Source: Bradyrhizobium sp. NFR13
GTDB taxonomy: Bacteria > Pseudomonadota > Alphaproteobacteria > Rhizobiales > Xanthobacteraceae
Length of the DNA stretch: 64,000 nt
Reading direction: 5' to 3'
NCBI RefSeq assembly: GCF_900114605.1
Contig: NZ_FOTP01000001.1
Span: 310,001 to 374,000 of the forward strand
The position numbers were made by a program, and so were the translations under genes. Of the stretch, positions 19,193 through 22,916 are shown piece after piece (within the stretch, counting starts at the first letter, position 1; every line of letters begins with the position of its first letter). The notes below the pieces were generated by a model. That model was given only the letters and a program-made list of their open reading frames with translations, was not told the origin of the DNA and searched no databases.

Positions 19193-19893
19193 TGCGTGGG
19201 ATATTCAGACATGCGTCATCACCCCTGTTGTTTGCGGCGCGGGGGCGCCGTCGTGTTTCGCATTCCCGCCCCCCTTGTGAGAGGGCGTGCGGAACGCCAG
19301 GTGCCCGTTGCACCCGTGGGCCTGATGCGAATGCGGTCTTCCGCAATTGTGAGTGCATCAGGACTTTCGGAGGCGCCGAGCAAGTGCCCGACGTTCCGCC
19401 TGCGGTGTTTTTTCGGTTGCTTGCACATCTGCCATGGCGAACGGTCCCATCACCAAAATTAATGTCCCAGGGCGGAGGGACAGGGTAGCCTCAAGCGAGT
19501 AAGCCGAACGCGTTTTGACTTGGTCGTCCGTCACACTGTCCAGGGAGTCTTTCCATCCCAAGATCGGCCGTCTCCTTGCCAGTGGCAGTGCTGGCGCAGA
19601 TCCGTCCTGCCCGAAGACAGACGTTCCCCCATGAACCGCGTGACGCCGCATCTCCGGCGTCCACCGCATCCCACCCCGCGAACGTGACGATCGCGATCGC
19701 CCCTCTCGGTGGGGCAGGACGGAGGGGACAATAATCCTTATTCCTGAAACGTCAAGAACAAACCATGAACTTTTAATCGCGGGCCGGGCGGCGCGTCCCG
19801 CCGGTAACCACTGCCCGCTTTTGCCCACAGATGCATGCACGCTTTGCGCGCTAAGGCTTTGACTTCGCCTGCGCTATCCCCCACTTAACCGCC
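19193..19893. other. About 700 bp without a supported gene
   Basis: No reading frame here has a ribosome-binding site or a recognisable protein family. The longest (minus strand, about 19358-19840) is arginine-rich low-complexity translation of GC-rich DNA. The stretch contains a small stem (CCGC-CT-GCGG) followed by TGTTTTTTC near 19399 and a 12-base CGATCGCGATCG palindrome near 19688. It looks like degraded or repeat-derived intergenic DNA; a small RNA cannot be excluded. Confidence 0.4.
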
Positions 19894-20130
19894 ATGGCCA
19901 AGAAACCCGGTACCAATCCCAAAGGCGAATTCGCCTTCTTCAACGTCTTCTATGAAGACGGCTCGCAGCGCTCCAACCGCCGCGTCCCCTCCGAATTGCT
20001 GGGGGGACTCGACGGCGATGAGCCGGCCAAGGCCGCCATCGCCGAGCAGGACCGCGAGATCGCCGAGAAGTCCGGCCGTCCGGCGCTGGAAATCAAGAGC
20101 GTCGAGCGCGTGGGCGCGAAGAAGAAGTAG
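19894..20130 (+). CDS. Conserved small basic protein, unknown
   Basis: 78 residues, Lys/Glu/Arg-rich, starting MAKKPGTNPKGEFAFFNVFY and ending in a KKK tail. A likely compact N-terminal beta-hairpin (FNVFYEDGSQRSNRRVP) is followed by a charged helix. No domain was recognised. It is the last chromosomal gene before the AT-richer reverse-transcriptase island. The clean start and high third-position GC support a real gene. Confidence 0.6.
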   Translation: MAKKPGTNPKGEFAFFNVFYEDGSQRSNRRVPSELLGGLDGDEPAKAAIAEQDREIAEKSGRPALEIKSVERVGAKKK

Positions 20131-20243
20131 TTAGCTTCGCGAAATCTGCATCTGAATTTGGAATGGCCGGGCTTGTCCCGGCTGTCTACGTTAGGCCGCA
20201 CAAATCGAAAGAGTTCAACGGCACCGACGTCGCGCTACAGCGA

Positions 20244-21686
20244 TTAACGTGCGAACTTTTCGAGCTCTGCATTCAAGCGGAATGCTACTGCCTCGCGCAG
20301 ATGCCTTAATTGCCTTAGGATTGGCGCACCCCTTGAACCAAATATCACTGATGCACGTCTGGCGTAGGTCCAGAACGTCCAAGTCCGATAGTCATCGCTG
20401 TGTTCGCCAAAATCGACGACCCTTCCAAAACGCTGAACAACGGCCTCAACCTTAATTTTAGACTTCAAAAACGCGCGATCTTTTCCCGGGTACCGCTTGA
20501 TAAGACTAAACACATGAGCCTTCGCGACGCGAGCAATCTTGCGATTAAGGTTCGCCAGCGTGCTATCCCTCAAAAAAATGTTTTTCCCATCAAATCGAAA
20601 CCCCAAATACTCAATTCCATTCCTTCCCTGCGAGCCATGCACCAACTCGCACGTTTGCCGCATACCCGTTTTTTTGAACTCAAAGACAGAACACTTTTCT
20701 TCTTTGATACGCAGCTTCTTTCCAAACTTTTCAATCTGTTTTCTTGCTTCATTCATAAGTGAAATTCCGGCGGCGGCCTGCCCTGGAATAATAAGCAGAA
20801 TATCGTCGGAGTATCGCATGTAAGCTCCACCGAGCTTTCGCGTGATGTCATTCATCACGATATCAAACTCAAAAAGATACATATTTGCCAACAGATCGGA
20901 GATTGGCGAGCCTTGCGGAATACCGAAAGGCTTGAAGTTTACTTGTATAAGACTCTTTCGACCGTCGCCGCCTGCGATCTTTTCCCGAAATTGCTTTCCG
21001 GTACACAACTGCTTGGGCATTGACTTGAATGGAACAAGATATCCATTGATTGCCTCGCCTTTACTCCCCTTTCGCTTCTCGCCGAACAGGTCCAAGCGCT
21101 CATAGACGCTCAATTTCTCTACCACCGAATATCTTGTCACAGCGCGAAACACCCGCTCATGGTCGGGCGGCAGCTTTTTCTGTTTGATAATGTTTGACCA
21201 TTGAGCACGGAGACGGTCGTGATCCAGATGCTCAAAAAAACTACTGATATCCAAAGCTACGACCGCACAATCGCCAGCAAGACTGATTGTATTGAACGCA
21301 TCGTTAGCAAAATGGATATTGCACTTACCGGCACCCGTTTCAGTACGCAAACGGCGATATGCCAAGACGCATTCGCTGATCTCAGCCTTAGCAAGCGCAA
21401 CTTCATAAAGCTGAGAAATCTGATGCCTGTAATAAGATAGTATATATGCGTCAGACCGTGCTGCGTAGCGAATAGGGCGTTCTTTCATTTTCCCAGCTGC
21501 TCCTTTCGGAGCGAATTTTGTCCAACGGTTGCTGAACAACATGAAGGGATAGAAGGTGTGCTTTGCGACCCGCTCGGGGTCGGTCGCAAGTGCCATAGCT
21601 TCGGGGATGGAAATCAGCGCGTCGAAATGAGGATAGCGTTTGAGATCCCCGGGACGCATTTCCCATTTCGTCAAGCGACGCTCCAT
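20244..21686 (-). CDS. Reverse transcriptase, probable DRT2 (UG2)-type antiviral RT
   Basis: 480 residues from the ATG at 21686. RT motifs in order: motif A with the first catalytic Asp in VALDISSFFEHLDH (about residue 146), motif B FGIPQGSPISDLLANMYL (about 254-271), motif C MRYSDDILLI (YSDD, 292-295), a motif D-like KCSVFEF and motif E IEYLGFRFDG. The N-terminal KRYPHFD, ERPIRYAARSDAYILSYY and GKCNIHFAND stretches resemble, from memory, Drt2 proteins. The retron VTG signature is absent, and there is no maturase, HNH or nitrilase domain. Such RTs act with an upstream non-coding RNA template against phage. Other starts: GTG 21740, ATG 21659. Base composition is clearly AT-richer than neighbours, indicating transfer. 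A different UG class is possible. Confidence 0.72.
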   Translation of the reverse strand: MERRLTKWEMRPGDLKRYPHFDALISIPEAMALATDPERVAKHTFYPFMLFSNRWTKFAPKGAAGKMKERPIRYAARSDAYILSYYRHQISQLYEVALAKAEISECVLAYRRLRTETGAGKCNIHFANDAFNTISLAGDCAVVALDISSFFEHLDHDRLRAQWSNIIKQKKLPPDHERVFRAVTRYSVVEKLSVYERLDLFGEKRKGSKGEAINGYLVPFKSMPKQLCTGKQFREKIAGGDGRKSLIQVNFKPFGIPQGSPISDLLANMYLFEFDIVMNDITRKLGGAYMRYSDDILLIIPGQAAAGISLMNEARKQIEKFGKKLRIKEEKCSVFEFKKTGMRQTCELVHGSQGRNGIEYLGFRFDGKNIFLRDSTLANLNRKIARVAKAHVFSLIKRYPGKDRAFLKSKIKVEAVVQRFGRVVDFGEHSDDYRTWTFWTYARRASVIFGSRGAPILRQLRHLREAVAFRLNAELEKFAR

Positions 21687-21693
21687 CCGAGAG

Positions 21694-22001
21694 GGGGCGA
21701 GGCATTCGGTTGCGGTCCGAATTATCTCCCCGCCCCACACCGTTTGTTACGAGTCGTCACCAACTCTAGATCCGCAACAGATCGATATTCTAGTCTATTA
21801 TGTCATCCTGGGGCTTTACGCCTTCGGAGCGCATGCGGACTACAACCGACGAGAGACCACATTGGATCAATTACTCATTCAGTTATTCGTCAACATTTGC
21901 CTTGACAGTTTCAACCGTCGCTCCGTCCCTCCGAGAAGGTTTGGATAACGCCCCCGCGAAGGAACGCGGGTTCCATTTAGGCACAGATTTTGGCTGTTCA
22001 A
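21694..22001 (-). ncRNA. Putative template ncRNA of the reverse transcriptase
   Basis: The space between the 229-aa gene and the RT holds no credible gene, but by eye it folds on the RT strand. In transcript order: hairpin CCCGCG/CGCGGG (21970-21953); long-range stem CGGAGCG (21925-21919) with CGCTCCG (21831-21825). The long-range stem encloses GACGGTT-CTGTC (21919-21904, including a G-U pair) and GACGA/TCGTC (21891-21887, 21852-21848), which in turn holds ATTG/CAAT. The 3-prime stem GGGGCG/CGCCCC (21736-21694) encloses TTCGG/CCGAA and ends eight bases before the RT ATG. The length of about 308 nt fits DRT2 ncRNAs. Ends are estimates. Confidence 0.5.
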
Positions 22002-22007
22002 TGGGCG

Positions 22008-22034
22008 ATAATAGGACTTTTACACAACTATCAA
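22008..22034 (-). promoter_or_regulatory. Candidate promoter of the RT ncRNA
   Basis: On the minus strand TTGATA (22034-22029), a 15-base spacer and TATTAT (22013-22008). The spacer is short, but both boxes are near consensus and the region is the most AT-rich of the window. The predicted start is near 22001. Confidence 0.35.
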
Positions 22035-22155
22035 ATAAGCATCTGAAATCTATATAATAATCGAATCTCGCAATGTTCCGTCTGCCGTTAAATCGCCCAA
22101 TATGTGACAAATAAACGATAACGCACCGCAAAATCGCAAGCCAGCTGGCCTCGCA

Positions 22156-22845
22156 TCAAAAGCCGAAATCTGGGTCATCATCTTTGCGAGGGGGCCGATG
22201 CGGACGCTCTGGAATTAGTTCAATCGCCTTCTCATAATATGACGAAACCTGATCAAGCCTCGCATCAAGTTCGTCTTTCGACAGAAGTGAGAACTTTCGA
22301 CTAGTGACCTGACGCAACTCGCGTCTATGCGTGACGAGCCCCTTCGACAGATCAACGATCATGGTGCCTTCGTCGTCGGACTGAAATTCGTATACTAGAG
22401 CACTACGCCACATTCTGAGCTGCTCATCGTTCGGACATTCTTCTTGGCGTGGCTGTAGCGCAACCAACCAATTTGAGTTCGTCTTCTTCGAGAAGTATCG
22501 ACCGATCGCTTCGATCTTAGTCGTTCGACCATTTGGCAATCGATAAGCGCTCGGAGCGAGAGAGTTGCCGCTCCATTGATGATTATCCGCAAATCTGACG
22601 AACAGTTCGACCGCCTTAAGTACAGATGCTTGCGCCTCGGGATAAACCTTCTGCCGAACAGCATTGCGCAGCGCGGTTTCCGGCAATTCGCGTGTCATTA
22701 CAATTGGTGCGACTTTGCGCAGCCACCCCAATGTCACCACAGGCGCTGGCGTTCGTCGAAACGACAAGCAAGCACCCATCGTGGAGGCCCCTGACAAGTG
22801 CCAGAACCTGACCAGATCGTGGATTGGCGGAAGATTCTCTGCCAT
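22156..22845 (-). CDS. Unrecognised protein upstream of the RT system
   Basis: 229 residues, ATG at 22845 after an AGGTAGAG ribosome-binding-like run. I recognise no domain. The N-terminal 50 residues are hydrophobic/basic and contain two Cys-poor helices. The middle has GRTTKIEAIGRYFSKKTNSNWLV (in pieces) and LVYEFQSDDEGTMIVDLSKGL, which reads like alternating beta strands. The C-terminus is a charged helix with a Pro/Arg/Asp-rich tail (PHRPPRKDDDPDFGF). Composition and codon use match the RT rather than the surrounding chromosome. It is on the RT strand and ends just before the ncRNA region, so it may be an accessory of the island or an unrelated passenger. Confidence 0.6.
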   Translation of the reverse strand: MAENLPPIHDLVRFWHLSGASTMGACLSFRRTPAPVVTLGWLRKVAPIVMTRELPETALRNAVRQKVYPEAQASVLKAVELFVRFADNHQWSGNSLAPSAYRLPNGRTTKIEAIGRYFSKKTNSNWLVALQPRQEECPNDEQLRMWRSALVYEFQSDDEGTMIVDLSKGLVTHRRELRQVTSRKFSLLSKDELDARLDQVSSYYEKAIELIPERPHRPPRKDDDPDFGF

Positions 22846-22916
22846 TCGGCAACTCTACCTGAGTCGCTGTAAAGATGTATTTTATCGTCACGTATTCTTG
22901 GGTTGCGAAGAAGCCT

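Follow-up and report, generated by a model that had tools for sequence, protein, structure and literature searches.

A diverged DRT2-type reverse transcriptase locus in Bradyrhizobium with a structured upstream RNA and a predicted junction-promoted neo gene

The nearest relative with a solved structure is KpnDRT2 of Klebsiella pneumoniae (PMC12039810, PMC11100668; PDB 9c0i). In the sections of these papers used here, the system is described as a lone reverse transcriptase (RT) with an upstream non-coding RNA (ncRNA) on the same strand. The template in this RNA is flanked by a jump motif that occurs twice (ACA-1 and ACA-2; PMC11100668), and tandem copying brings the scrambled promoter elements TATAAT and TTGACA together at 17 bp (PMC12039810). 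The resulting repeat of 120 nt is divisible by three and carries one open frame. A pseudoknot between a post-template segment and a distal segment has also been described (PMC12596737, in the part consulted); a pseudoknot that holds the thumb is expected of DRT2 systems. The related DRT9 and DRT10 are class 2 RTs with an ncRNA and, according to the portion of PMC12632851 considered here, they make repetitive non-coding cDNA. Tang et al., as far as their text was used, state that Neo is harder to annotate in more divergent DRT2 clades and that alternative mechanisms are possible there. Our literature search found no paper on the clade described below, although an earlier annotation may exist in supplementary material or in the journal version of the work by Tang et al.

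Here we analyse a 64-kb stretch of the genome of Bradyrhizobium sp. NFR13 (the window), in which an original prediction had placed a lone RT of the UG2/DRT2 class with a structured upstream region.

The reverse transcriptase, its relatives and its genomic setting

The locus was delimited as follows:

20244..21674, minus strand: predicted DRT2-type RT, 476 aa, with a YSDD active site; TTG start, with ATG 21686 and GTG 21740 as alternatives
20183..22913, no strand assigned: variable insertion in which the system lies next to a 229-aa gene unrelated to it, delimited by comparison with same-genus relatives, the left edge falling at 20131-20183 depending on the relative

The intact lone RT and the AT-rich, gene-free and structured stretch upstream of it are real. 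The open reading frame and the Pfam search agree with the claim of an intact YSDD enzyme without a fused domain, RVT_1 being the only Pfam family to pass its cut-off. The GC content is 48 % for the RT and 46.5 % for the gap at 21741-22155, against 62 % for the window, and no supported gene was found in the gap, as had been anticipated on both counts. The claim that YSDD is a diverged active site fell. This motif is common among DRT2-type loci, being present in 23 of 26, while YCDD, the form found in KpnDRT2, occurs in two and one broken copy has no motif.

Profile searches supported the proposed class. The PADLOC Drt2 profile matched the RT with 440 bits (E 2.6e-132), the next-best RT class reached 73 bits and the Drt9 profile 48 bits. 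No other gene in the genome matched Drt2 at E 0.001. The score with the NCBIfam Drt2 profile, a curated equivalog, was 360.2 bits and stayed below the cut-off of 390, for which reason we class the RT as a variant. The top sequence match in PDB was KpnDRT2 (E 5e-60), with about 30 % identity. The fold predicted from six sequences (mean pLDDT 76) is also nearest to KpnDRT2 (E 9e-30, TM 0.71/0.79), followed by DRT9 (E 3e-9), whose profile score is far lower.

Some weak matches of the RT core to retron and group II intron profiles could suggest an RT of one of these two kinds. We consider this origin hardly conceivable, as both trail Drt2 by more than 350 bits in PADLOC, the PDB match, tree and fold contradict it, the strings VTG and NAxxH were not found in the RT (the lack of the retron VTG signature had been foreseen), and no Rfam family matched the window at gathering thresholds.

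In a tree of 25 RTs, calculated without L038 and the broken RTs of L006 and L007, the RT belongs to a clade of nine with 100/100 support, together with L035, L036, L037, L045, L046, L048, L049 and L059. This clade stands apart from KpnDRT2 with L047, from eight other alphaproteobacterial sequences, from L008 and L009 and from the planctomycete sequences. L006 and L007 are further clade loci with 58 % and 54 % identity; the RT of the former is split over two frames and that of the latter is without a large middle part. Among plasmid-borne 16S copies, those of Bosea, Methylosinus and Methylobacterium come closest to the 16S of the genome (91-92 %), which places it in the Hyphomicrobiales of the Alphaproteobacteria. 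The RT clade members with names are Azospirillum and Paracoccus, that is the Azospirillum brasilense Sp 7 plasmid (L045) and Paracoccus ferrooxidans pFER4 (L046), both of whose records are without DRT2 annotation. The plasmid search gave 26 records, three of which were retrieved, and phage records gave three distant matches; in viral contigs the single protein as query found no relative. Profiles, PDB match, fold and tree taken from sequence thus support a UG2/DRT2-type RT. The class named in the original prediction was upheld, but the NCBIfam shortfall and the failure to find the ACA/ACA jump motif at the edges of the template mark the system as a diverged variant of it and not as a typical member.

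Regarding the start of the RT gene, the ORF caller chose GTG 21740, giving 498 aa, and ATG 21686 would yield 480 aa. We favour TTG 21674 over GTG 21740 because the GTG falls on the base of a hairpin conserved in the RNA (21691-21740) and because the N-terminus shared by the clade RTs (M-x-x-W ... LKxYPHFD), also seen in L006 and L007, fits this TTG. A GGAG motif is located 6 nt upstream of it.

Comparison with 18 same-genus genomes shows flanks that are conserved up to about 20130-20183, the left edge varying with the relative, and again from about 22914. Among the five relatives compared in detail (L061-L065), the site is near-empty in G107, with 277 bp between the flanks, and G088, G026, G140 and G066 carry different genes, some of them defence-like by eye. 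The latter include, judging by eye from translations, a helicase-like ORF of 913 aa and a pair consisting of a methylase and a nuclease-like gene. Since the site is near-empty or differently filled in all five, the locus occupies a variable insertion site. A dispersed repeat of about 530 bp (19204-19741) adjoins it; many copies, with about 80-95 % identity, are present in the genome and in several same-genus genomes.

We also asked whether the 229-aa gene (22156-22845, minus strand) could be a second component. This was rejected, as no similar ORF was found in the available flanks of the other clade loci, searches of PADLOC, Pfam, NCBIfam and PHROGs assigned the gene to no family, and neither the 247 other family genomes nor the plasmid collection yielded a relative. 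The available flanks of 11 clade loci have no neighbour gene in common, which agrees with a one-gene DRT2 system.

The upstream RNA

The following RNA features were predicted on the minus strand:

21687..21985, minus strand: upstream ncRNA with both ends estimated, supported by a match to the covariance model R1 and by covariation
21922..21945, minus strand: 5′ handle hairpin, from the covariation of the 5′ region in six loci
21750..21767, minus strand: short stem AGAG...CTC(G), buttress-like, helix 1 of the scaffold
21691..21740, minus strand: long hairpin, tower-like, with changes on both sides in 9 of 14 pairs
21772..21777, minus strand: possible pseudoknot strand UUGCGG
21710..21715, minus strand: CCGCAA within the long hairpin's loop, the possible partner of this strand
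21974..22001, minus strand: candidate ncRNA promoter TTGAAC-16-TAAATG, read by eye

We built the covariance model R1 from six relatives, leaving the window out. It matched the window at 21678-21807 (minus strand) with 88.9 bits and E 6.4e-19, and no second match was found in the 64 kb up to E 10. Among 391 family genomes three were matched, each beside a clade RT. Across 25 other loci, where the six building loci match by construction, the 19 non-building loci gave two weak matches (L036 with 25 bits and L046 with 20 bits, the scaffold of the latter being more diverged), L008 was not significant (E 0.54), and R1 found nothing in the remaining 16, to which two clade members, L037 and L049, belong. 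L006 and L007, the nearest relatives by identity, have well-matching RNAs (113-114 bits), both having been used for the model.

Covariation is seen in both parts of the RNA. For the 3′ scaffold, the 21 pairs were formed in 95.9 % of cells of a seven-sequence alignment, and 11 of them showed changes on both sides, compared with 1-3 in slid controls; the count benefits from the fitting of this alignment to the model. An independent fold of six loci including the window likewise gave double changes in 11/21 pairs. In the 5′ region (six loci), double-sided changes were present in six of 13 pairs and slid controls yielded 0-1. The fold of the window RNA has a z of -2.6, with 3 of 200 shuffles as good.

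The RNA had been predicted within the gene-free gap. It is indeed conserved beside homologous RTs, but it is not confined to the gap: the structured RNA spans the RT-proximal part of it together with about 54 nt of the ORF start in its annotated style (GTG), overlapping the annotated start of the RT. The comparison of loci indicates that a conserved structured RNA is present upstream of the homologous clade RTs.

A 5′ handle, and a long hairpin plus a short stem in the 3′ scaffold, would be common to this RNA and that of KpnDRT2, whose features were taken from the consulted parts of the papers and compared by description rather than by RNA alignment. For the candidate pseudoknot, 9 of 14 flank pairs were formed with a permutation fraction of 0.043, a count that excludes an alternative register in L045 which was spotted post hoc and would raise it. 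We regard the UUGCGG/CCGCAA pseudoknot as suggestive only.

Near the predicted 5′ end of the RNA the window carries a GC-rich hairpin, CCCGCG...CGCGGG (21953-21970, minus strand). The other clade loci have, by eye, seemingly unrelated hairpins at this place.

The template, its jump sites and the predicted neo frame

The elements of the predicted neo gene are:

21784..21912, plus strand: template region as cDNA, 129-bp neo repeat unit, divisible by three, with one stop-free frame
21796..21801, plus strand: -10 element TATTAT of the predicted junction promoter
21902..21907, plus strand: -35 element TTGACA of the predicted junction promoter
21911..21915, minus strand: predicted 5′ jump site, RNA GUUGA, at a conserved position
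21781..21786, minus strand: predicted 3′ jump site, RNA AUCGAU
21862..21864, plus strand: TTG, the 27th of 43 codons in the neo frame, at the place where 8/10 clade loci have a start preceded by a Shine-Dalgarno sequence

On the plus strand, which has the sense of the cDNA, TATTAT stands before TTGACA, an order that forms no promoter in the chromosome. The two hexamers contain one mismatch in total. Joined head to tail at a spacing of 17 bp, copies of the template form a repeat of 129 bp in which one frame is free of stops; the point of the junction is uncertain by a few bases and the length is fixed by the spacing. A first blind scan, which required perfect microhomology, failed to pick out the correct unit, which emerged instead from the comparison of relatives.

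We picked anchors by eye in nine clade loci and imposed the 17-bp spacing on them, leaving out L037, which shows no clear -35 element, and L038, whose upstream sequence reads N. The units measured 120-141 bp and all were divisible by three. In each of the nine the cDNA strand had one stop-free frame and no more, always in the same phase. The chance of such stop-free frames is about 1e-4 (shuffled interiors), and that of the unit lengths about 2e-4 for the eight further loci, both if the loci are independent; shared descent weakens these figures, although the unit lengths differ by in-frame steps. The RNA-strand frame was also open in five of the nine loci, the window not being among them. The products of frame 0 have a positive GRAVY in 8/9 loci.

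To remove the by-eye choice of anchors, we ran a fixed scan on 26 DRT2-type loci, L038 being left out. A promoter pair with at most one mismatch was recovered in 16 loci, and all 16 were in frame and open. The opposite strand gave two pairs with none passing, in 100 shuffles a pair occurred in 0.63 loci on average and 0.03 loci passed (maximum 1), and no pair passed in 376 tiles of the other-RT loci L014-L034. Within the window, both strands included, the only pair was the one at the RT locus. No pair at this threshold was found in 10 of the 26 loci, among them the clade member L037. L047, the positive control that groups with KpnDRT2, failed even at two mismatches, with one stop in its top candidates. 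These results suggest that the logic of the neo gene extends to the diverged clade, and the expected neo gene would be present here as an open frame with a 17-bp promoter.

The window, L045 (used to build R1) and L046 share the promoter pair and phase as well as corresponding jump sites. The other DRT2 clades (L008-L013, L039-L042 and planctomycete L001-L003) mostly have the same scrambled promoter and an open frame, and differ in their Neo sequences, in an earlier neo start and in giving no significant match to R1. The three planctomycete loci combine a scrambled promoter and an open frame with other Neo sequences, L001 and L003 passing only with two mismatches. The neo frame is also open in L006 and L007, beside their broken RT genes.

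For the jump sites and neo starts we compared 20 of the 26 loci, dropping those without a candidate unit. The clade cDNAs contain TCAAC after the -35 element and TCGAC or a similar sequence before the -10 element (TCAAC/TCGAY in cDNA sense), whereas the consulted description of KpnDRT2 gives ACA/ACA in the RNA. Jump-site homology of at least 2 nt ended at the same offset in 17/20 loci, and in nine of the ten clade loci. In L035 both sites deviate from the consensus in the same way. The window is the remaining clade locus and one of the three exceptions, with TCAAC against TCGAT matching only as TC-A-.

A neo start preceded by a Shine-Dalgarno sequence was found at codon 25-31 in eight of ten clade loci and at codon 10-14 in nine of ten loci outside the clade. 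L045 and L046 have an ATG of this kind, which the window lacks: its neo frame contains no ATG and no strict Shine-Dalgarno start. By the same criterion no neo start was found in L006.

Among the ten clade loci, the window copy matches least well at the jump sites and its neo start is one of the two weakest, so that it may be impaired. This raises an alternative in which the lineage is a working DRT2 clade and the window copy is decaying, its RT intact and its jump site and neo start damaged. It would account for the missing jump homology that the nine other clade loci possess and for a start codon limited to TTG without a strict ribosome site, and it fits the broken RT genes in the two nearest relatives by identity. 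On the other hand, the RT is open over 476-480 aa with all motifs, the scaffold still scores 88.9 bits, the hexamers are nearly perfect and the neo frame is open. We consider decay improbable, if worth keeping in mind.

The weak neo start of the window is also compatible with an effector that is the repeat DNA itself and not an encoded protein, as described for DRT9 or DRT10; the part of PMC12632851 used here reports repetitive non-coding cDNA from these related class 2 RTs. Such an effector would leave unexplained why the frame is kept together with the promoter spacing in every one of the 16 loci with a pair, and why a Shine-Dalgarno-preceded start sits at a constant place in most of the clade. 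We judge it very unlikely.

Proposed mechanism and its meaning for DRT2 systems

The locus most probably belongs to a distinct clade of DRT2-type anti-phage systems, in which copying of a 129-nt template would lead to a junction-promoted repeat Neo; this assessment draws on comparative sequence analysis. By analogy to KpnDRT2, the RT would bind the 5′ handle and the 3′ scaffold of the upstream RNA and copy the template between the two predicted jump sites. The tandem cDNA would place TTGACA 17 bp upstream of TATTAT and create a putative promoter absent from the chromosome. Transcription from it would read an endless frame, visible in the sequence, with the presumed repeat DILVYYVILGLYAFGAHADYNRRETTLDQLLIQLFVNICLDSF, in which the residue at the junction would be D or N depending on the jump point. 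The largely hydrophobic repeat protein may then arrest the infected cell, as judged by analogy.

Several observations count against the DRT2 explanation. The RT falls short of the NCBIfam cut-off, and the window has a jump-site mismatch and a weak neo start. Ten of the 26 loci are without a pair, L047 and L037 fail, and R1 misses L037 and L049. The RNA strand also has open frames in five of nine loci, and the relatives are few and share descent.

Beyond this locus, we lean slightly towards viewing the clade as a deep DRT2 branch which would have kept the core trick, a promoter and reading frame locked by the 17-bp junction, with the jump letters, the RNA scaffold, the place of the neo start and the Neo protein replaced. 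If this is true, the combination of TATAAT ... TTGACA, spaced at 17 bp over the junction, with a single open frame would be a general key to hidden neo genes in DRT2 systems, and Neo would be several dissimilar effectors, not one. One rule that combines promoter and frame recovers an open neo frame in this diverged clade as well as in several other clades, planctomycete loci among them. With concrete hidden genes named, the generality of RNA-templated gene assembly becomes testable.
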